The notes beneath the pieces are model-generated. The model was not told the DNA's origin and did no database searches. It saw only the letters and a program-made list of their open reading frames with translations. From assembly GCF_003319115.1 (NCBI RefSeq), contig NZ_QOHF01000007.1:1-64000 (forward strand): 64,000 nucleotides of DNA. Reading direction: 5' to 3'. The translations under genes and the position numbers were made by a program. How positions within the stretch are numbered: the first letter of the stretch is position 1; every line of letters begins with the position of its first letter. The stretch comes from Geodermatophilus sp. TF02-6. Lineage in GTDB: Bacteria > Actinomycetota > Actinomycetes > Mycobacteriales > Geodermatophilaceae. This document shows, one piece after another, positions 2,252 to 12,299 of this stretch.

Positions 2252-2257
2252 GCGGGC

Positions 2258-2638
2258 TCAGTCCTTCATGAACCGGACCGCCAGCGCGGCCGCGCCGTAG
2301 GCCAGCGAGCTGGCGACCGCCCGCACCGTGGTCCTCCGGCCCGCCCCGCGGGAGGTCGCCAGCGCGGTCACCGAGTCGAGCAGGTTCATCGCCGCCACCG
2401 CGACCAGCCCCCGGTCGACCTCCTCGTCGGTGCGCGCGGTCAGCGCCAGCGCGGAGACGACCAGCGCTCGGCTGCCGAACAGCCGCTGCAGCTGCAGGCC
2501 TCCTGGCGTCACCGGGACGCCGTACCCGGTGGCGACCGCTCGCGGCGCGACCAGGCTGACCAGCCCGAACGCCGCCCCGGCGGCGCCGAGCGCCCTCGCC
2601 AGCGCCCGCTTGGACACCCCTCCGACCGTCTGCGCCAT
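2258..2638 (-). CDS. Small multi-helix membrane protein (DUF4267-like)
   Basis: 126-residue protein with about three or four hydrophobic segments, including AAGAAFGLVSLVAPRAVAT, ALVVSALALTA and a C-terminal SLAYGAAALAVRF. The early LVAPRAVATGYGVPV and later FGSRALVVSALAL elements match what I recall of DUF4267-type membrane proteins, but the assignment is from memory. ATG at 2638 has a GGGAGA ribosome site upstream on this strand. It converges with the ABM-fold gene, only 6 bp separating their stops, and is divergent from the alpha/beta hydrolase at 2753. Confidence 0.65.
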   Translation of the reverse strand: MAQTVGGVSKRALARALGAAGAAFGLVSLVAPRAVATGYGVPVTPGGLQLQRLFGSRALVVSALALTARTDEEVDRGLVAVAAMNLLDSVTALATSRGAGRRTTVRAVASSLAYGAAALAVRFMKD

Positions 2639-2752
2639 GGCGATCTCCCTGTACGAGGCCCGGACGGCGTCGACCCGCCGTCCGCCGGAGTCAACCAGTC
2701 CGGCTCCCGGCCCGCACCAGCACGAGCCCGCCCGGCAGTAGCGTCGGACGGC

Positions 2753-3520
2753 GTGGCGGTCGACCCCCGCGGCGCCGACGTCGACGTGCAGCACCGCGCC
2801 ACCAGCTGGGGCGTGGTGCGCAGCCGCGTCGTGGGTCGGCCGCGGGACGGCGTCCCCGAGGTGGTCGTCGTCCACGGCCTGGCCGTCGCCGACTACCTCC
2901 AGCCGGCCCTGTGCGAGCTCGGCACCTGGACCCGCGCGCACCTGGTCGAGCTGCCCGGCTTCTCCGGCAGCGGGGAGCCGCCGCACCCGATGGACGTCGG
3001 CCAGTTCGCCGACGCCGTCGTCCAGTGGCTGGACGCCAGCGGCCTCGACCGCGTCGTCCTCGTCGGGCACTCCAGCGGCACCCAGGTGGCCGCCCACGTC
3101 GCCGTCCGCCGGCCGCACGTCACCAGAGCGCTCGTCCTCGCCAGCCCGACGATGGACCCGCGCTTCCGCAGCACCCGGCGGATCCTGCTGGCCTGGCGCC
3201 GCAACCACGCGCTGGAGCCGCCGAGCCTCGACGAGCGGCACACGCCCGAGCGGCAGCGGGCGGGGCTGCGCCGGGTCCGGCACGCGCTGCGCGTCCACCT
3301 GGCCGACGCCCTGGAGGACGTCGTCCCCTCCGTGCCGGTCCCCGTGCTCGTCCTGTACGGCGATCAGGACCGGATCTGCACCGAGGCGTGGGCGCGCGAG
3401 CTCGGCGAGCTGGCCCCCGACGGCCGGTTCCGCCTGGTGCCCGGCGCGCACAGCTTCGTGTGGACGGCGCCGTCGGCCTGGTCCGCGCCGATCGAGGAGC
3501 TCGCCCGCGAGGTGGCGTGA
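2753..3520 (+). CDS. Alpha/beta hydrolase
   Basis: 255-aa alpha/beta-hydrolase fold protein. Oxyanion-loop HGLAVADYLQP follows strand 3; the nucleophile elbow is GHSSG (about residue 104), the acid is in YGDQDRI (about 205), and the His is in PGAHSFVW (about 230), so the catalytic triad is complete. No signal peptide, so probably cytoplasmic. Substrate unknown; sequence resembles general esterase or C-C hydrolase members. Translation starts at GTG 2753. It ends about 50 bp before the Phd/VapC antitoxin. Confidence 0.82.
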   Translation: MAVDPRGADVDVQHRATSWGVVRSRVVGRPRDGVPEVVVVHGLAVADYLQPALCELGTWTRAHLVELPGFSGSGEPPHPMDVGQFADAVVQWLDASGLDRVVLVGHSSGTQVAAHVAVRRPHVTRALVLASPTMDPRFRSTRRILLAWRRNHALEPPSLDERHTPERQRAGLRRVRHALRVHLADALEDVVPSVPVPVLVLYGDQDRICTEAWARELGELAPDGRFRLVPGAHSFVWTAPSAWSAPIEELAREVA

Positions 3521-3527
3521 GCCCCGA

Positions 3528-3561
3528 TGTGGCTACACTCATGCCTTGAGATGTGGCCACA
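3528..3561 (+). promoter_or_regulatory. Promoter with two operator-like palindromes for phd-vapC
   Basis: Two matching 10-bp sites lie 24 bp apart: TGTGGCTACA (3528-3537) and TGTGGCCACA (3552-3561), the second a perfect palindrome. TACACT (3534-3539) fits a -10 box inside the first site, and AAGGGGG before the antitoxin ATG serves as ribosome site. Type II antitoxins usually repress their own operon by binding such paired palindromes; that use here is inferred from position. Confidence 0.55.
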
Positions 3562-3572
3562 AGGGGGTCGTG

Positions 3573-3830
3573 ATGAGCTCGATCGGCGTCCGTGAGCTGC
3601 GGGACGGGTTGAGCCGTTTCCTGGCCGAGGTCCGCGCCGGGCGCACCATCACGGTGACCGATCACGGCCGACCGGTCGCCCGCATCGTCCCGGTCGACGA
3701 GCCCAGCCCACTCGAGCGGCTGGTCGCCGAAGGGCTCGTGCAGCCGGCCCGCCAGCGCACGCGGTCGGCACCCCAGCCGGTCGAGGCCTCCGGGACGGTC
3801 AGCGACCTGGTCGCCGAGCAGCGCAGGTGA
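3573..3830 (+). CDS. Phd/YefM-type antitoxin
   Basis: 85-aa antitoxin of the Phd/YefM fold. The N-terminal half SIGVRELRDGLSRFLAEV and TITVTDHGRPVARIVP is the typical DNA-binding 'VRELRxxLSxxLxxVxxGxxxxVTxxGxPVAxIxP' pattern; the C-terminal half is the less ordered toxin-binding arm. ATG 3573 is preferred over the ATG at 3546 because it follows AAGGGGG and matches the family start. The stop overlaps the GTG of vapC by 4 nt. Probably represses its own promoter (paired palindromes at 3528-3561). Confidence 0.88.
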   Translation: MSSIGVRELRDGLSRFLAEVRAGRTITVTDHGRPVARIVPVDEPSPLERLVAEGLVQPARQRTRSAPQPVEASGTVSDLVAEQRR

Positions 3831-4264
3831 TCGCCTACTTCGACACGTCTGCCGTGGTACCGCTGCTCGTCCAGGACGAGCCCGGCTCCGAGGTGTGCCT
3901 CCGGGTCTTCCTCGAGGCGGCGGCCGTGGCGACCGTCCGGATGACGTTCGCCGAGACTTGCGCCGCGCTGGCCGGCGCATCCCGGCTCGGCCGCCTCACC
4001 GCCGAGGCACACGACCGAGCGCTGGTCGAGTTCGAATCGGTCTGGGCCCAGATGGACGTCGTCGAAGTCGACGACGTCCTCGTCCGCACAGCGGGAGCCT
4101 TGGCCCGCACGCATGCTCTCCGCGGCTACGACGCGGTCCACTGCGCTGCAGCCCTGCGATTGACCAGCGAACGGACCATCGCGCTGGCCGGTGATCGAGC
4201 CCTGCTCGCCGCCTGCCGCAACGAGGGTCTCCGGGTGATCAACACGCGCGCCCGAGCAGGGTGA
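3827..4264 (+). CDS. vapC: VapC-type PIN-domain toxin
   Basis: 145-aa PIN-domain endoribonuclease. The metal-binding acidic residues are visible: D6 (AYFDTSA), E43 (TFAETCA), D102 (RGYDAVH) and D123 (LAGDRAL). This set is complete, so the enzyme should be active. Family members cleave tRNA or rRNA and are neutralised by the cognate antitoxin. GTG start overlaps the Phd stop, giving a coupled two-gene operon. Confidence 0.9.
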   Translation: MIAYFDTSAVVPLLVQDEPGSEVCLRVFLEAAAVATVRMTFAETCAALAGASRLGRLTAEAHDRALVEFESVWAQMDVVEVDDVLVRTAGALARTHALRGYDAVHCAAALRLTSERTIALAGDRALLAACRNEGLRVINTRARAG

Positions 4265-4432
4265 TCCCCAGCGCTCGTGCGCTGCAGAGGGTCACAGCCC
4301 GGATCCTCCCGTGTGGGGTCACGACGACAGCCGGGCTCGCACGTCCAGACCTCGGTCCCGCGCGACCACGGCCCGGGCGCGGGCGGCGAGTTCCCCGTAG
4401 CAGTCCTGACAGCACCGCTAGGGTGCCCGGCC

Positions 4433-4944
4433 ATGGCGCGGCGCCTGGTCCCGTTGCTGGCCCTGGCGCTCGTCGGCTGCTCGATGGGCGCAGGCGTCAG
4501 CGACACCGGCGACGCGCCTGCTCCCACTCCTCCGGCTCCCACCACGACCGGCACCACGACCACACCACCGCCGGAGGGCCCGGTCACCCTCGCCTTCGCC
4601 GGGGACGTACACACCGCCGGGCGGCTCGAGGAGCGCTTCAGGTACCCCGAGACCGCGCTCGCCCCGGTGGCCCCGATGCTGGACGGCGCCGACCTCACCA
4701 TGGTCAACCTCGAGACCGCCGTCACCGACCGCGGCACCGCCCAGGACAAGACGTTCACCTTCCGCGCGCCGCCGTCGGTGTTCGACGACCTGCGGGTCGC
4801 CGGCGTCGACGTGGTGAGCATGGCCAACAACCACGGCGTCGACTTCGGGCCGGTCGGGCTCGCCGACTCCCTCGACGCCAGCCGGCAGCGGGACTTCCCG
4901 GTGGTCGGGGCTCCTGCGCCGAGCTCGGCGACTCGCCGTCCTGA
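4433..4944 (+). pseudogene. Truncated CapA-like lipoprotein
   Basis: Starts as a CapA/PgsA-type metallophosphoesterase-fold lipoprotein: signal peptide with lipobox ALVGCS, low-complexity Pro/Thr linker, then VTLAFAGDVHTAGR, MVNLETAVTDRG, FRAPPS and SMANNHGVDFG, all expected in the first half of the family. After about residue 160 (FPVVG) the family sequence stops; full members have roughly 200 more residues. The CapA frame runs on through unrelated codons to 5005, while another frame ends at 4944 with CAELGDSPS, which could be the original C terminus. An internal deletion with frameshift is the simplest reading; the head is certain, the tail is a guess. Confidence 0.7.
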
Positions 4945-5001
4945 CCGCGAGCGGTACCCGACGGCCGTGCCACCGGCAGGGCGGCGGCGCTACGGTCCGG
5001 C

Positions 5002-6351
5002 ATGACGTCCCCGGGGAAGGGCACACCGCCACGGGGGCGCCTGGCCCGCACGGCTCGGCTCGCCGCGCTGCCGGCCGCCTACGCCGGGCGCACCGCCGTC
5101 GGGATCGGCAAGCGGATCGGCGGCCGGCCCGCCGAGGCCGTCGCCGCGCAGGTGCAGCAGCGCACCGCCGAGCAGCTGTTCGCCACCCTCGGCCGGCTCA
5201 AGGGCGGCGCCATGAAAGTCGCCCAGGCGATGTCGGCGATGGAGGCCGCGCTCCCCGAGCAGCTGGTCGGCCCCTACCGCGAGACGCTCGTCCGGCTGCA
5301 GGAGGCGGCGCCGCCCATGCCGACCGCGCTGGTGCACCAGCAGCTCGACACGTCGTTCGGGCCCGACTGGCGGCGGCTGTTCCGGGACTTCGCCGACCGG
5401 CCCGCCGCGGCGGCCAGCGTGGGGCAGGTGCACCGCGCCACGTGGTCCGACGGCACGCCGGTGGCCGTCAAGGTCCAGTACCCCGGCGCCGGCGAGGCGC
5501 TCGTCGCCGACCTGGGCGTGCTGCAGGGGCTGGCGCCGGTCGTGCAGGCGGCCGCGCCCGGCCTCGACGCCCGGCAGCTGCTCGCCGAGCTGCGCGACCG
5601 GCTCATCGAGGAGGTCGACTACGCCCGGGAGGCCGAGGCCCAGACCGCGTTCGCCGACGCCTACCGCGGCGACCCCGACATCGTCGTCCCCGACGTCCTG
5701 GCGGTGCAGGAGCGAGTCCTCGTCACCCGGTGGGTCGACGGCACCCCCCTGTCGCGGGTCGTCGCCGACGGCGCCCCGGACGACCGCGACCGCGCCGGCC
5801 TGCTGCTCGTGCGCCTGCTGGCCTCCGGTCCGGTGCGCGCCCGACGGCTGCACGGCGACCCGCACCCGGGCAACTTCCGGCTGCTGGACGACGGCCGGCT
5901 CGCCGTCCTCGACTTCGGGGCCACCGAGGCCCTGCCGCACGGCTGGCCGGCCCGGCTCGGCCCACTGCTCGCCGCCGGGCGGGACGGCGACGCCGCGGCG
6001 CTGCACCGGATCGCCGCCTCCGCCGGCCTGCTCCGGCCGGACCAGGTGACCCCCGACGCCCTGCTCGACCTGCTCGACCCCTACCTGGCGCCGCTGCGCA
6101 GCCCGACCCACCGGTTCACCCGCGCGTGGTTGCAGGAGCAGACCCGGCGCGCCTCCGACCCCCGCAGCGCCGCCGCCCGCACCCAGCGCCGGCTGACCGT
6201 CCCGCCGCGGCACCTGCTGCTGCAGCGGGTGGCCGCCGGGCTGGTCGGCGTCCTGTGCTCGCTGGGCGCCACGGTGGCCGTGGACGGCGAGGTCCGGCGG
6301 TGGGTGCCCGGCTACGACGGCACCCGCACCGTCCATCGCGAGGAGGACTGA
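5002..6351 (+). CDS. AarF/UbiB (ABC1) family atypical kinase
   Basis: 449-aa protein of the ABC1/UbiB kinase-like family, linked to quinone biology or membrane lipid handling. Visible: the N-terminal family helix LKGGAMKVAQAMSAMEAA, the Ala-rich loop AAASVGQVH, the VAVKVQYPG lysine strand, HGDPHPGNF catalytic loop and AVLDFGATE metal-binding motif. The family's KxGQ motif reads KVAQ, so the Gly is replaced by Ala. A C-terminal hydrophobic stretch (VAAGLVGVLCSLGATVAV) may be a membrane anchor. Its stop overlaps the ATG of the next gene, so the two are coupled. Confidence 0.85.
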   Translation: MTSPGKGTPPRGRLARTARLAALPAAYAGRTAVGIGKRIGGRPAEAVAAQVQQRTAEQLFATLGRLKGGAMKVAQAMSAMEAALPEQLVGPYRETLVRLQEAAPPMPTALVHQQLDTSFGPDWRRLFRDFADRPAAAASVGQVHRATWSDGTPVAVKVQYPGAGEALVADLGVLQGLAPVVQAAAPGLDARQLLAELRDRLIEEVDYAREAEAQTAFADAYRGDPDIVVPDVLAVQERVLVTRWVDGTPLSRVVADGAPDDRDRAGLLLVRLLASGPVRARRLHGDPHPGNFRLLDDGRLAVLDFGATEALPHGWPARLGPLLAAGRDGDAAALHRIAASAGLLRPDQVTPDALLDLLDPYLAPLRSPTHRFTRAWLQEQTRRASDPRSAAARTQRRLTVPPRHLLLQRVAAGLVGVLCSLGATVAVDGEVRRWVPGYDGTRTVHREED

Positions 6352-6827
6352 TGACCGGCGAGGGACCACGCGACGCCGACCGGCGCAAGCAGGACACGCT
6401 GGCGCTCCTGACCCGGCCGGCGGTCGACGTCTGGGTCGCCACCGCCGGCACTGGCGACGCGGACGCCTCACAGCCCCACCTGGTTCCGGTGTCCCTCGCG
6501 TGGATCGACGAGCGCGCCGTCATCGCGGTGGAGGAGAGCTCGCGCACCGCCCGCAACATCGCCGGCGGCGGCACGGCCCGGCTCGGCGCGGGACCCACCC
6601 ACGACGTCGTGCTGCTCGACGTCCGGCTCGAGCGCTCTCTGCCCGTTCCCGACCCCGCGGCGCACGAACTGGCCGAGCGCTACGCCGCCCAGGCCGACTG
6701 GGACCCGCGCACCACCGGCCCCGGCTACCGCTTCCTGGTGCTGCGCCCGGAGCGCATCCAGGCCTGGCGCGAGGCGGACGAGATCCCCGGCCGGACGCTG
6801 ATGCACGCCGGCGCCTGGCTCGTCTGA
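6351..6827 (+). CDS. Pyridoxamine 5'-phosphate oxidase-fold flavin/F420-binding protein
   Basis: 158-aa split-barrel protein. The pattern LTRPAVDVWVATAG, PHLVPVSLAWIDERAVIAV, SRTARNIAGGGTARL and later HDVVLLDV matches small PNPOx/F420-dependent-reductase-like proteins. Start ATG 6351 shares its A with the TGA of the AarF-like gene (ATGA context) and has AGGAGG seven bases upstream. No catalytic residue can be pinned down, so flavin, F420 or haem binding is unresolved. Confidence 0.75.
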   Translation: MTGEGPRDADRRKQDTLALLTRPAVDVWVATAGTGDADASQPHLVPVSLAWIDERAVIAVEESSRTARNIAGGGTARLGAGPTHDVVLLDVRLERSLPVPDPAAHELAERYAAQADWDPRTTGPGYRFLVLRPERIQAWREADEIPGRTLMHAGAWLV

Positions 6828-6870
6828 CCCGGTTCCGCAGGTAGCGACTGGTCGGTCGGCGTGTGAACAG

Positions 6871-6944
6871 CAACAGGTGCCTTCCGACCAGGGAGGATCA
6901 GTGGTGTCGAGCCCCTGATCTCTTCTCGCGGAAGGCACCTGTTG
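6871..6944. repeat. Nested inverted repeat upstream of the transposase
   Basis: Perfect 16-bp inverted repeat: CAACAGGTGCCTTCCG at 6871-6886 and its complement at 6929-6944, enclosing a smaller GATCAG...CTGATC stem around 6896-6920. It lies just before the transposase frame and is probably part of the IS (subterminal or anti-readthrough structure). Confidence 0.75.
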
Positions 6945-7029
6945 GGGGAGCAAACTACGACGTGGCAGCGGTCGTGGCAGGCAGGTCCGGATCGGCGCGC
7001 CGGACGCGTCGCTGACCGGCTGCGGCGGC

Positions 7030-8394
7030 GTGGCGGTGCTCGCCGAGCTGGAGCACCGCCTGGGCGTGGCGGCGGCCTTGGACACCGCAGTTGGGCCGAT
7101 CAAGCAGCGTGACCGTGGCCTGTCGGCGGGGCAGTTCCTGCTCGCACTGGCGCAGGCGCAGATGTGCGGGGAGACCGCGCTGGTCGGCTGTGACCGGCGG
7201 CGCGCCGACGCGGTCGCCGAGGAGTTTTCGGCGGTGCCGACGCCGGCATCGACCACCGCGGCGACGCTGGCCCGCCGGTTGTCCGAGGAGCAGTGGCTGT
7301 CGGTGGAAGACGCCCTGGCCGCTGTCGCCGCCCGCGTGCATCGGCTGCTACCGGCCCGGCGACGGGCCGCGCTGGAAGGGCAGCCGCCGACGATCGATCT
7401 GGACACCACCGACACCGAGGTCTACGGCCGGCGCAAGCAGGGCGTGTCGTTCAACCACTGCGGGCAGAGGGTCGGTCGCACCCACCTGGCCAGCTGGGCG
7501 CAGGCCTCGCTGCCGCTGGCCGCCGATCTGCGCGACGGGCGCAGCGACCCGCGCACCTACTCCACAGAGCTGATGCAGCGGGCGCTGGCCGGGCTGGCCC
7601 GGATCGGGGTGTACCGACCCGGCGACCCGACCGCGCCGCGACCGCGGTTTCGGGATGGACACCGGTTACAGAGCGGCGAGCTGGCCCGCGCGGCGGTCGA
7701 GGCCGAAGGCGACTTCAGCATCGGTGTCCGCCGCGGTGAGGCGGTCTGGGCGGCGGTGTCCCGAGTGCCGGCCGGCGGCTGGGCCCCGGCCAAGGGCATG
7801 CCCGGCACCGAGGTCGCCGTCGCCGACTATGCCCCGGCCGGCTGGCCACAGGGCACCGTCTGCATCGTGCGCCGGGTCCGGCACAACGCCGCGGACATCT
7901 CCGCCGACCCGCGCGCCCGGTGGCGGCGCACCATCCCCAAAGAACAGCTCGCCCTGGCCCTCGACGGCGAGGTCGACGCCGTCTACGGCTACTCCTTCAT
8001 CGCCACCAACCTGCCCGCCGACAGCCCAGCACAGGCGGTGGCGATCGAGGCTTGGCATCGTGGTCGCACCGATGTCCAGGACCGCTTCCGCGACGCCAAG
8101 CACGGCGCCGCCCTGCTCCACCTGCCCTGCGGCGACCCGGCGGTGAACACCGCCTGGCTGTGGGCCGCGTTGCTGGCGCTGGCACTCTCGGCGTGGCTAT
8201 AAGAACTCGGCGGTCTCGATGACGGCGACGGCCGCGGCCGGGCGCACCTGGGCGGCCTGCGCCGCGAGCTGATCTGCGTCCCCGCCCGGCTGATCCGCCA
8301 CAGCCGCGAACTCATCCTGCGGCCCGCCCCCGGTCAGCACGGCATCCTCGCCGCCGTCCTGGCTCGGCTACGCACGCTACCGGCAGCGGCCTGA
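7030..8394 (+). pseudogene. IS1380-family transposase, inactivated
   Basis: DDE transposase similar to IS1380 throughout: LTGCGG upstream of 7030, GPIKQRDRGLSAGQFL, LDTTDTEVYGRRKQGV (first Asp), ADPRARWRR, YGYSFIATNL, and EAWHRGRTDVQDRFRDAKHG (Glu region). Two lesions are visible. First, an in-frame TAA at 8200-8202 interrupts it (AWL*ELGGL), while the frame continues with a family-like tail (LRRELICVPARLIRH) to TGA 8394; CAA to TAA is the likely change. Second, the motif MDTGY expected around the second Asp is present only in the +1 frame (ATG 7655), implying a compensated frameshift. The frame is open upstream of 7030 without a start codon. Confidence 0.82.
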
Positions 8395-8616
8395 CTCTCG
8401 GCCTCCCCGGCCCCGACTCCAAGATCACGAGCCTGTGGACCTCCGCCTCCCGGAGCGACATCCCGGCCACTGGGCTGCCCAAACCTCGGCCGGAACGACC
8501 CAATCAAGATCCAACCGCGTGATCGGCGGCGTGCCCGGCACCATCTGCGGAACCGGGTCTGACCGCGCCGTCCCGCGCTCCCGTCCTCACCGCTGCGGCA
8601 GCGGGACGGGCGGAGG

Positions 8617-9045
8617 CTACGGCGACGCCGACGGCCCGCCGGTCGGGGAGTCATCGTCGCCGGCGCGGTCCGGATCGGGCCAGACGTCGTCCGCCCGCCG
8701 CTTGCGCTCGTCCTGCGTGCGCCACCGCCTGACCTCGGCCCGCGCGAGCACGAAGGCCAGTAGCACCGGCCAGACGTACTTCGCCTTGTCCAGGAGCTCC
8801 CGCACCCACGCGGGCAGCTCGGGCAGGTCCCAGTCGGGCAGCGGGATGTTGGGCAGGTCCCAGTCAGGCCACGGGATGGCCGGCAGGTTCCAGTCCGGCA
8901 AGGAGATCGAGAAATGCGGCAGCGGAATGTCGATCCGGGACAGCAGCCACAGCCCGAGCACCGGCAGCAGCACGCCCAGCACGGCGGGCGCGGTGCGGCG
9001 GACGGCGTACCGGTGGGGGTGGGCGCGGATGGCCGCCTCCCGCAC
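8617..9045 (-). CDS. Membrane protein with PDWDLP repeats
   Basis: About 142 aa from a GTG at 9045 (an upstream ATG at 9135 would add residues that merely mirror a TetR remnant on the other strand). One transmembrane segment (APAVLGVLLPVLGLWLL), then a Trp/Pro-rich stretch with three tandem units of the type LPDWDLPxIP, then a second hydrophobic segment (YVWPVLLAFVLA) and a charged tail ending in acidic and Pro residues. The repeats lie in the loop between the two membrane segments. I do not recognise a family; function unknown. The N terminus may be truncated at the junction with the TetR fragment near 9060. Confidence 0.55.
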   Translation of the reverse strand: MREAAIRAHPHRYAVRRTAPAVLGVLLPVLGLWLLSRIDIPLPHFSISLPDWNLPAIPWPDWDLPNIPLPDWDLPELPAWVRELLDKAKYVWPVLLAFVLARAEVRRWRTQDERKRRADDVWPDPDRAGDDDSPTGGPSASP

Positions 9046-9081
9046 CGCGGCCCGCGAGCCGGGCTCCGGGTCGGCGCCCTG

Positions 9082-9333
9082 ATGGGCGACCTGGACGTCG
9101 CGGCCGCGCTCGCCCGCGACGAGGCCGCCGTCCACGACGGGCTGCTGCCCTGGGTCGAGGTCGCCCGGGCCGCCGGCGAGATCCGCAATGACATCCCGGC
9201 CGCCCGGCTGTGCTCCTGGATCACGGTCGTGCTCGACGGCTTCCTCAGCCGCCTCGCCGATGAGCAGGGCTTCACCGTCACCGCGGATCAGGACGTGCTC
9301 GTCGACACCGTCCGGCGCCTGCTCGCGCCGTGA
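9082..9333 (+). pseudogene. C-terminal remnant of a TetR-family regulator
   Basis: About 84 codons that read like the ligand-binding C-terminal part of a TetR/AcrR regulator (LLPWVEVARAAGEIRNDI, SWITVVLDGFLSRLA, DTVRRLLAP). There is no helix-turn-helix N terminus; upstream sequence belongs to the opposite-strand membrane gene. Best explained as a gene cut by a deletion or inversion next to the accessory region. Confidence 0.6.
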
Positions 9334-9481
9334 CCGCGCGGCTCAGCCACGAGGTGTCGGCCCCTCGCCGGCGCGAGACACTACACGCGCGTCAAGCGAT
9401 CACATGCAGTGAGCGGCAGCGGCATGACCAGACCAGCGGTACGTCCTCGTGCCTGCCGACGAACGCAAGTGGCGCCATCCG

Positions 9482-10105
9482 TCACGGCCACATTCCTTGG
9501 CTGACCAGTACGTCGACCTGACGCAGCAACCGTGCGAGGCTCGGCGCCGCCACAGCAGCGGCGTCCGGTTGCCACGCCGTCTCCGCATACTCGGAGATCA
9601 GCGAGGTGTACTCCGGGCCTACCCGCCGTGGACTTCTTCCTGGTGGAACGATGCCGCGCCGGATCAACGCGCTGCTCGAGCGGCGGCACAGGTCGACGAG
9701 CGCCCCCTTCGGATCGGCCAGCTCTTCCGGCGACTGCGGCAGCCGATCACGAGTGACACCGAAGAACGAGGCAAACGTCTGCCCGTCGGCCAGCAGCCAG
9801 GCGTCAAGGGTGTGGACTGCGATACGCAGAGCCAGCGCGGGCGCCTGCTCCTCGGGCGCCAGCAGCCTGCGGCGAAGCGTCATTGCGCAGTCGTTGCCAT
9901 CACGGTCGAGATCACGGACCGCCAGCCATGGGGCATGGCGCGCCGCCTGGTTGTACTTGGCGACACGGCGGTCGAACTCCTGCTTGCCGCGTGTCACCTT
10001 CACCCGGCGCGGATCGACCTCGAGCCCGCGGGTCCGTAACACGGCGGTCATCGCGACCCGGTCCGTCTCACCCTCGACGACGAGGCCCACCAAGCGCGGG
10101 CTCAA
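9482..10105 (-). CDS. TOPRIM-like protein (DUF4276-type), partner of AAA ATPase
   Basis: 207 aa. The N terminus LVVEGETDR (E11, G12, D15) followed by LAVRDLDRDG (D65, D67) is the acidic constellation of TOPRIM/OLD-type nucleases and of DUF4276 proteins, which are commonly encoded beside AAA ATPases. The middle has IAVHTLDAWLLAD, also typical of DUF4276. ATG 10105 overlaps the stop of the ATPase gene by 4 nt, so the two are coupled, ATPase first. By analogy with OLD, Gabija and PARIS systems it may be the nuclease or effector of a two-gene defence unit; that role is inference. Confidence 0.72.
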   Translation of the reverse strand: MSPRLVGLVVEGETDRVAMTAVLRTRGLEVDPRRVKVTRGKQEFDRRVAKYNQAARHAPWLAVRDLDRDGNDCAMTLRRRLLAPEEQAPALALRIAVHTLDAWLLADGQTFASFFGVTRDRLPQSPEELADPKGALVDLCRRSSSALIRRGIVPPGRSPRRVGPEYTSLISEYAETAWQPDAAAVAAPSLARLLRQVDVLVSQGMWP

Positions 10106-11265
10106 CGTGAGGCGAGGTCGATGCGTGCCAGCCGTTCTACGCCTTGGGGCCTCGACCGCGGAAGTCCCACCTCGGCAACGGTCAAGCCACTGTGGATGTC
10201 CTCCAGCGCGTCCTCATCCTCGGCGAGGATGTAACCCGTCGTCCCGTCGTTGCCGACCTCGAGCACGAGCACCTCATCGGGTCCCACGCTCTCGTCACTG
10301 AGCAGGTCGGGACTGTGGGTCGTGAGGATGACCTGGGCGCCGCCCCGTTGGGCGCGTGCGAGAACCGAGGGCAGCATCCGGACGACCTCCGGGTGCAGAG
10401 ACAGCTCCGGTTCCTCGAGCAGGACCGGGGCGCCCCGGCGCTGCACTTCGACCAGGGACCACAGCAGGCCGATGAGCCGCAGCGTCCCGTCGGAGAAGTC
10501 ACTCTCGTCCTGCCTCGCCCCACTGCTTCGCCAGTTCGTGTACCGACTCTCGAGGTGCGGACGACCCGCCGTGTCCTGGGTGATCGACAGCGACTCGAAC
10601 TGGGGTACCGCCACTTGCAGGGCGTCGGTGACACGACGTAACCATGCGTCCCGAGTCTTGACCGGAACGGCGTTCATCCGCGCGATGAAGTCGCCGCCGA
10701 AGGGGTCATCAGGGCGCGTCCCTGCGCGGGACGAGTCACGGATCACCTGCGGCACCAGGTGCAGATAACGCGTGGCCGCGAGGAATTCGGCCACTTCCCG
10801 GAAGTCCTTGTTCGCCGATATCTGCTCCAACGCGGTCTGCGTCAGCCGCTCCGGGTCGTCTTCGTCGTTCGAGTCTGGGCGGTTGAGCACCACCGCACCC
10901 CGGTCCCGGACGACCTCAGTGGCAACCACGACCCGGTTCCGTCCCGCGCCCTCGCCTCGGAAAGAAAGCTCGTAAGTCCAGCGCTGCGGTTCGTCGTCGT
11001 CACCCAGACTCACCTCGACTGAGACATGACCGTGGTTGTTATTTCGGGCGAAGAGACAACGCACACGACTGAGCCCACCGCGCGCGCCAACTGCATCCTG
11101 CAGCCCTCCTCCTGGACCGGCGAGGTCGCGCAGAAAGCGAATCGAGTCCAGGAGGTTGGACTTTCCGGACGCGTTGGGGCCGATCACGATGAGTCGCTGA
11201 CCGACTGGAATCCGTAGGTTCTTGAACGTCCGCCAATTACGCAGGGACAAACTTGTGATGCGCAC
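10102..11265 (-). CDS. AAA/ABC-type ATPase (AAA15/21, RecF/OLD-like)
   Basis: 387 aa. Walker A GPNASGKSN at residues 29-37 right after the N-terminal strand pair 'SLSLRNWRTFKNL'; signature-like SDGTLRLIGLL; Walker B PVLLEEPELSLHPE; H-loop ILTTHSPDLLS. This is the compact OLD/RecF-type ATPase without a long coiled-coil and without its own TOPRIM domain, which is supplied by the next gene. Codon use is less GC-extreme than in the flanking genes (more A/T at third positions), and both flanks hold truncated genes, so the pair looks acquired. Function by context: candidate phage-defence ATPase sensor. Confidence 0.85.
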   Translation of the reverse strand: MRITSLSLRNWRTFKNLRIPVGQRLIVIGPNASGKSNLLDSIRFLRDLAGPGGGLQDAVGARGGLSRVRCLFARNNNHGHVSVEVSLGDDDEPQRWTYELSFRGEGAGRNRVVVATEVVRDRGAVVLNRPDSNDEDDPERLTQTALEQISANKDFREVAEFLAATRYLHLVPQVIRDSSRAGTRPDDPFGGDFIARMNAVPVKTRDAWLRRVTDALQVAVPQFESLSITQDTAGRPHLESRYTNWRSSGARQDESDFSDGTLRLIGLLWSLVEVQRRGAPVLLEEPELSLHPEVVRMLPSVLARAQRGGAQVILTTHSPDLLSDESVGPDEVLVLEVGNDGTTGYILAEDEDALEDIHSGLTVAEVGLPRSRPQGVERLARIDLASR

Positions 11266-11480
11266 ACGGCCTCCTGTCTCGCGAGATCACTCTACGAGTC
11301 CGGGAGACCAAGACGAAGACGCGCGCGGTGTCGACCCGAGTCCGTCAGCAGCGTGACGCTCCCGTCGGCCCAGGAGAACCAGCGCCGTCGGGTTGGTGCT
11401 GCACCACCTCACCGTTGCTCTGGTGGTCACTCGGTGGACGAGCATGCGAAACGGTTCGCGGCCTGACTTGCCGACGGCGA

Positions 11481-12227
11481 TCAACCGGCTGATCGCCGCA
11501 TCGACCACATCTGGGCCGGGCGCTCGAACTGGGTGGCGATCTCCCAGCTCACCGGCGTGGCGGTCTCCTTGCGGAAGTTGGCGACCGCCACCCGCGCCAG
11601 CTCCGGGTCGGCGGCCACCCGGGAGGCCAGCTCCAGCGCACGGGACTCCACCGCGTCGTCGTCCACCGACTCCCAGGCCAGGCCCAGCTGCACGGCCCGG
11701 TCGCCGTCGATCTCCTCACCGAACAGCGCCATCGCCGCCGCCGCCTCGCGGCCGATCAGCCGGGACAGGATCACGAAGTGCCCACCGCCCGGGTGCATCC
11801 CCCGCCTGAGGAACCCGCACAGCAGCCGGGCGTCGCGAGCGACGATGCGCAGGTCGGTGGCCAGCAGCATGTTCATCCCCGCGCCTACCGCCGAGCCGCG
11901 CACCGCCGCGACGGTCGGCACGCGGACCTGCCCCAGCCGGTAGAAGGAGTCGTAGATGGTCGACATGCCCGCGTAGGCGGCGGGCTCCGCGGGGTCGCGG
12001 CCGGCGTCGGTCAGCGTCTGGATGTCCCCGCCCGCGCAGAACGACCTCCCCACCGCCCGCACGACGAGTGCCCCGACCTCCGGGCGGGCGTCCACCTCGT
12101 CGAACAGCGCGCTCAGCTCGGCGGCCATCGGAGGGGTCAGCGCGTTGCGCCGCTCCGGTGCGTTCAGCGTCACCACCGCCACCGCGCCGTCGACCTCGAG
12201 CAGCACCTCACCGGAGCCAGCAGCCAC
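11481..12227 (-). CDS. Enoyl-CoA hydratase/isomerase family protein, C-terminus shortened
   Basis: 248 aa from GTG 12227, which follows a GAGAGGTGGG ribosome site (the frame runs to 12272). Crotonase fold: first oxyanion-hole SFCAGGDIQTL, second GSAVGAGMNMLLATDLRI. The usual end of the family (a further helix of roughly 20 residues after the WSMR helix) is missing: the protein stops five codons after QMWSMR. The break coincides with the border of the ATPase/TOPRIM cassette, so the 3' end was probably lost when that DNA inserted. Activity may survive because the missing part is the trimerisation tail; this is uncertain. Confidence 0.78.
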   Translation of the reverse strand: MAAGSGEVLLEVDGAVAVVTLNAPERRNALTPPMAAELSALFDEVDARPEVGALVVRAVGRSFCAGGDIQTLTDAGRDPAEPAAYAGMSTIYDSFYRLGQVRVPTVAAVRGSAVGAGMNMLLATDLRIVARDARLLCGFLRRGMHPGGGHFVILSRLIGREAAAAMALFGEEIDGDRAVQLGLAWESVDDDAVESRALELASRVAADPELARVAVANFRKETATPVSWEIATQFERPAQMWSMRRSAG

Positions 12228-12299
12228 GAGCCCACCTCTCGTCGGGCGGCCGGCCTGCTGCCGGCCGTTCACGAGATGGCATCAGACCACGGACGGCGC

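Follow-up and report, generated by a model that had tools for sequence, protein, structure and literature searches.

What do two overlapping genes of Geodermatophilus sp. TF02-6 do, and is the system that they form a new one? The genes lie in a stretch of 64,000 nucleotides (nt; positions 1 to 64,000 of contig NZ_QOHF01000007.1, hereafter the window), and a reading of the letters alone, here called the original prediction, had put them forward as a candidate for an undescribed phage-defence system. Gene A (10102..11265, minus strand, GTG start) encodes a compact OLD/PtuA/Rad50-type ABC ATPase of 387 residues, the proposed sensor or gatekeeper. Gene B (9482..10105, minus strand, TTG start) encodes a predicted TOPRIM nuclease of 207 residues, the proposed effector. 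Our reading of the open reading frames (ORFs) agreed with the original prediction in both frames, their strand and coordinates, and in the 4-nt overlap between the stop of A and the start of B (TTGA, 10102-10105).

Family assignment and conservation of the gene pair

Both proteins strongly matched models in PADLOC over their full lengths. Protein A matched HEC-01A (PDLC04180; E value 1.5e-155, 516 bits, residues 1-380 on positions 1-379 of 382), and protein B matched HEC-01B (PDLC04194; E 3.5e-54, 182 bits, residues 4-200 on positions 4-197 of 204). The pair is therefore a further member of the catalogued HEC-01 family and not an undescribed system; HEC systems and TOPRIM-linked OLD-ABC pairs have, moreover, already been published. 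The name HEC stands for Hma-embedded candidate, and several of these, HEC-06 included, are reported to be active (PMC12988326). HEC-04, a fusion of an ABC ATPase with TOPRIM, gave protection against T4 and T5 (PMC12111858), and TOPRIM-linked OLD-ABC modules are seen as backup suicide effectors for BREX and related systems, Hma included (PMC12839542). HEC-01 itself is named, as an annotation label, among the predicted systems of Desulfovibrio piger strains (PMC12724379). No experiments on HEC-01 turned up in a literature search that did not reach the founding preprint (Payne et al. 2024, bioRxiv 10.1101/2024.01.29.577857). We consider that the TF02-6 pair is probably a free-standing HEC-01 module acting as an abortive defence cassette of the split OLD type, similar to PARIS.

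Relatives were collected by a pattern scan of the contigs of GTDB species. As 481 of the 535 pattern matches encode relatives of A (tblastn, E ≤ 1e-3), the matches go beyond chance. The best 80 of these 481 stretches, with A 43-68% identical, form the set of relatives used below, and derive from Actinomycetota, Acidobacteriota, Pseudomonadota, Chloroflexota, Planctomycetota, Bacteroidota, Bacillota and others.

Protein A matched Pfam AAA_21 (E 2.3e-34), and in NCBIfam and PHROGs only entries below cut-off or of unknown function. Its best alignments are with the heads of SMC, Rad50 and PtuA. The Walker A, signature, Walker B and H-loop elements had been described as intact, and this is borne out by a 79-row alignment (L078 and L108 left out of the 80 loci): K35 of the Walker A motif GPNASGKSN, S258, D259 and G260 of the signature, and E284-E287 of the Walker B motif (EEPE) are each present in all 79 rows, and H317 in 77.

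An intact B starting at most 60 nt from the end of A was found in 69 of the 80 relatives, 33 of them with the 4-nt overlap. The other 11 loci, left out of the B alignment, comprise four with a partial B and seven without B by the 60-nt rule; among the seven, B is cut at the contig end in L069 and L075 and lies 163 nt behind a shortened A in L078, L108 has a broken A, and B is absent from the stretch read in L056, L063 and L101. Over 70 pairs (2415 comparisons), the identities of A and those of B are correlated (Spearman 0.87; Mantel r 0.92, a value that none of 1000 permutations reached). Shared descent alone can yield such a correlation, which therefore shows that A and B travel together and not that they are in contact.

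Predicted active site and kinship with known systems

A TOPRIM nature had been proposed for protein B, and structure prediction gave such a fold. The AlphaFold model (predicted local distance difference test score 95.8) aligned best with six solved chains from C-terminal regions of OLD proteins and from PARIS AriB, with modest Z scores. The model also places the acidic residues as in a TOPRIM domain: E11 follows predicted strand 1 (5-10), D65 ends predicted strand 3 (60-65) and D67 comes next. This makes B a predicted TOPRIM nuclease. The label DUF4276-like, also given to B, holds weakly, as a match to PF14103 is present (E 6.9e-5) with 23.6 bits, under the gathering cut-off of 30.2 bits. The match to Pfam OLD-like_TOPRIM (E 0.0096) is likewise below the gathering score, NCBIfam and PHROGs gave no match, a sequence search against the PDB returned chance matches only, and a literature search found no paper on DUF4276.

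The EGxTD and DxD acid sets of the original prediction are well conserved. E11 and D15 are carried by VEGETD, and D65 and D67 by DLDRD. E11, D65, C73, D107, K133, G163, W178 and S189 are the same in all of 70 B proteins. D67 occurs in 67 of these, the other three having Asn, and D15 in 65. Position 101 is Glu in 69 and Asp in the TF02-6 copy alone. In the three proteins with Asn as the second residue of DxD (L085, L098 and L124), C73, D107 and K133 are kept, and catalysis is possibly altered.

In the OLD protein of B. pseudomallei, metal A is held by E400, D455 and D457 and metal B by E404, T506 and E508, with K562 catalytic (PMC6755086). The residues of B follow the same order: E11, D65 and D67, then D15 and E/D101, then K133. 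The pairing of K133 with K562 and of D101 with E508 is taken from the order of secondary structures, without coordinate superposition, and T506 lacks a conserved counterpart in B. A basic stretch at 141-160, conserved in most rows, may bind nucleic acid.

The same order of catalytic acids, together with similar predicted ATPase and TOPRIM folds, is found in class 1/2 OLD proteins and in GajA of Gabija, although these join on a single chain what A and B carry on separate genes. The pair might also act in another way. B may be a DNase that A loads on invading or replicating phage DNA, which would be degraded directly, as by class 2 OLD/Gabija-like nucleases, instead of the cell being arrested through RNA cleavage. 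We give this alternative a real chance, somewhat short of even.

The abortive reading that we prefer takes PARIS as its guide. The term class 4 OLD has been discussed for PARIS, in which ATPase and TOPRIM are split between two genes (PMC10568477); AriA holds AriB, which on triggering is released as an active tRNase (PMC12409363). The TF02-6 proteins are shorter, B having 207 residues versus 306 in the AriB chain, and A 387 versus 464 in AriA. A matches the AriA model of PADLOC (PDLC02980, E 2.2e-33), whose 304 positions span the same stretch as AAA_21; the HEC-01A match is far stronger. The pair most likely works like PARIS without being PARIS.

By analogy with AriA-AriB, sensing would fall to A and the effector role to B. 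A complex of the two, the restraint of B by A, the trigger, the choice between RNA and DNA as substrate, and defence itself are all inferred. A, an OLD-ABC ATPase that presumably acts as an ATP-bound oligomer, would keep B inactive. Once A meets a sign of infection, which could be a protein of the phage or an abnormal state of nucleic acid, its ATPase cycle would free or activate B. The freed B, acting as a two-metal TOPRIM nuclease, would cut nucleic acid required by both cell and phage, and the infected cell would stop ahead of phage release.

Several named systems were ruled out as identities for the pair. PARIS was excluded on its effector, since no AriB model is among the 14 PADLOC matches of B at E ≤ 1; class 1/2 OLD, since the ATPase and TOPRIM lie on two ORFs; and Gabija, since there is no fusion and no adjacent UvrD-like helicase gene, a TetR-like fragment and a transposase being what lies beyond B. 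Septu and retron PtuA were excluded because the partner is the TOPRIM-like B and not the HNH nuclease PtuB; none of the surrounding genes that were examined encodes a reverse transcriptase. Concerning MADS, A matches Mad3 (NF047739, E 6e-22) and B weakly matches Mad4 (E 0.011), but the 78 bits of the Mad3 match are far below the NCBIfam cut-off of 420 bits, and no other MADS gene was noticed among the genes examined beside the pair. In one relative, a 943-residue ORF just before A (L097:2087-4918) matches Mad3 in its C-terminal third (E 4.2e-105), so that this neighbour may belong to MADS or be a second ATPase.

Distribution and genomic setting

The pair is patchily distributed. Of 112 genomes searched in the family, TF02-6 alone has B (E ≤ 1e-3). 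Among 394 genomes of the class, TF02-6 included, the HEC-01A profile matched 9 (E ≤ 1e-30) and the HEC-01B profile 9 (E ≤ 1e-3). Among 346 genomes of the phylum, A was found in 8 at E ≤ 1e-15, namely TF02-6, four with 50-56% identity and three with 26-28%. The tree of A intermixes phyla, the nearest relative of the TF02-6 copy being that of Quadrisphaera granulorum (68%). No close relatives of A or B were found in viral contigs with single-protein patterns, which are able to find close kin only; B was absent from plasmids and phages at E 1e-5, and A was not found in phages and had four distant relatives (23-27% identity) in plasmids. The TF02-6 genome holds a single clear copy; the next match to the ATPase has an E value of only 5.2e-4.

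This distribution bears on the possibility that A and B are a cellular DNA-repair pair, a RecF/Rad50-like ATPase with its nuclease and no phage role. The alignments of A with SMC, Rad50 and PtuA heads would suit such a pair, as would the finding that many of the neighbours scanned in relatives are housekeeping genes; the presence of B in a single family genome, the phylum-mixing tree and the foreign codon use argue against it, and we regard it as very improbable.

The softer codon use attributed to the pair was confirmed. GC content at third codon positions (GC3) is 0.773 in A and 0.798 in B, the lowest of nine genes measured; the other seven are a nucleotidyltransferase (0.826), a PIN gene (0.842), a transposase (0.893), the enoyl-CoA hydratase gene (0.936), the gene at 1547-2251 (0.953), an ABC1 kinase (0.978) and a hydrolase (0.984). 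Since GC3 is 0.77-0.80 in the pair versus 0.94 in the adjoining core gene, and B occurs in 1 of the 112 family genomes, the pair is probably an acquired module. Between 9200 and 11600 no promoter was found, and the single terminator-like site, on the opposite strand, is at chance level; Rfam gave no match at gathering scores between 7000 and 13000.

The pair lies in a variable 9.2-kb stretch (2253..11480), together with a Phd/YefM antitoxin and PIN toxin pair (3570-4264) and a transposase gene. In G053, among the nearest genomes by the hydratase gene, 6 nt lie between the counterparts of 1579-2252 and of the hydratase gene, so that the stretch separates genes that adjoin there. The piece at 5406-5636 (ABC1 kinase) matches G053 beyond the counterpart of 1579-2252, and in G054 and G050 the kinase gene has these same genes nearby; the region has thus been rearranged and is not a clean insertion. 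In G054, G055 and G058 the same interval carries other cargo, including PIN, SNF2 helicases, metabolic genes and a cupin (17 of 18 ORFs scanned). The stretch is a spot of gene turnover and not a fixed defence island. No direct repeats were found at its ends among the 20 largest of 37 families, and the window has no tRNA genes.

Truncated genes had been described on both sides of the pair, but only the B side looks eroded. There, what resembles the C-terminal part of a TetR protein (near 9058-9333; Pfam E 0.041, under the cut-off) has no match in the 25 other genomes of the genus, and a DDE transposase gene (7030..8202, plus strand; PF13701, E 1.2e-14, profile positions 26-373 of 435) is probably incomplete. 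The A side is intact, with an enoyl-CoA hydratase/isomerase gene (11481-12272, 263 residues) that has a match in 26 of 26 genus genomes at E ≤ 1e-60. A PGA_cap gene (4277-5005), covering only model positions 1-123 of 255, is probably broken.

About 8 kb from the pair, at 34-1067, lies a likely HEPN/MNT toxin-antitoxin pair, made up of a nucleotidyltransferase (Polbeta E 4.5e-5, under the cut-off) and, after it, a HepT-like RNase (E 3.2e-21). With this pair and that at 3570-4264 close by, A and B could themselves be a toxin-antitoxin or mobile-element maintenance module, in which B is the toxin, A the antitoxin, loss is costly and phage defence incidental. The overlapping two-gene operon, the low GC3 and the scarcity of defence genes near relatives fit this proposal. 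It is nonetheless improbable: an intact ATPase catalytic site exceeds what an antitoxin needs, and the repeated embedding in Hma operons described below fits defence better. The proposal also overlaps with the abortive cassette that we favour, as PARIS itself has toxin-antitoxin logic.

The neighbours of the relatives weigh against a general defence-island setting. We scanned 141 of 283 picked proteins (L045-L086, up to 900 residues) and, of 17 longer ones, 9 plus one more from L066; they are mostly ordinary genes with few defence genes, and the island signal is weak. No further partner stands out near the pair among the neighbour clusters. Several of the clusters reflect the synteny that four Actinomyces share; another, ABC-transporter-like and present in 10 loci, lies at least 1.5 kb away.

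Hma operons and free-standing copies

The relatives were searched for Hma genes with HmaA and HmaB proteins from two of the 80 loci as queries, the query loci being counted. An HmaA-like gene lies upstream in 14 loci and an HmaB-like gene downstream in 10; 9 loci have both and 15 at least one. PADLOC confirmed nine of these genes, as HmaA in L066, L069, L088, L094, L105 and L109 and as HmaB in L088, L096 and L117. Because PADLOC names these neighbours HmaA and HmaB, the subfamily includes the Hma-embedded copies that gave HEC its name. Relatives with the gene order of TF02-6 thus sit between HmaA and HmaB, whereas the TF02-6 copy stands alone, its genome holding no specific HmaA.

The computed evidence consists of two predicted folds, the conservation of catalytic residues and of the operon, co-divergence, a patchy and foreign distribution and close kin in Hma operons. 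Structure prediction and the conservation of motifs and operon, with the patchy distribution, support the anatomy first proposed, that of an OLD-type ATPase with a TOPRIM partner, PARIS/OLD-like logic, mobility and possibly a defence role.

In a tree with 79 rows (Hma labels cover L045-L124; the midpoint root serves drawing only), the 25-row clade with the TF02-6 copy contains none of the 15 Hma-labelled loci. When L039, from outside the 80 loci, was added, it joined this clade (26 rows, Shimodaira-Hasegawa-like approximate likelihood-ratio test (SH-aLRT) 99; L039-L041 bear a default label in this tree), and it lies in an Hma operon, with HmaA on one side (E 1.9e-115) and an HmaB-like methylase (E 7.4e-100). 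Its B looks truncated (L039:2-1495), about 155 residues running into the HmaB-like methylase frame (HEC-01B on 4-155, HmaB on 223-495). The genome of L040 also has an Hma operon (phmmer; L162). Within a 14-row actinobacterial clade around the TF02-6 copy (SH-aLRT 99), which includes Quadrisphaera, Propionibacterium, Pseudopropionibacterium, Gordonia, Corynebacterium, Microbacterium and Actinomyces, no Hma genes were found in the retrieved sequence, with flanks of up to 10 kb.

These observations raise a speculative possibility, to which we assign roughly one chance in a few: the 14-row clade would be a self-sufficient immune system, in which the short TOPRIM effector has an RNA target of its own (for example a tRNA held by the conserved basic stretch 141-160) and A senses a phage-coded inhibitor of host defence. 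If this were true, the Hma-embedded copies would serve as a backup, this alarm having been recruited for the case that Hma is blocked.

The ATPase family behind HEC-01 is widespread. The interest of the TF02-6 pair is modest, as a good example of a little-studied candidate anti-phage family, here standing alone. Compact, free-standing and with a near-standard active site, this actinobacterial copy would be a handy test piece for a release mechanism shared with AriA-AriB among split OLD/TOPRIM pairs, and is suited to asking whether such pairs need Hma at all.
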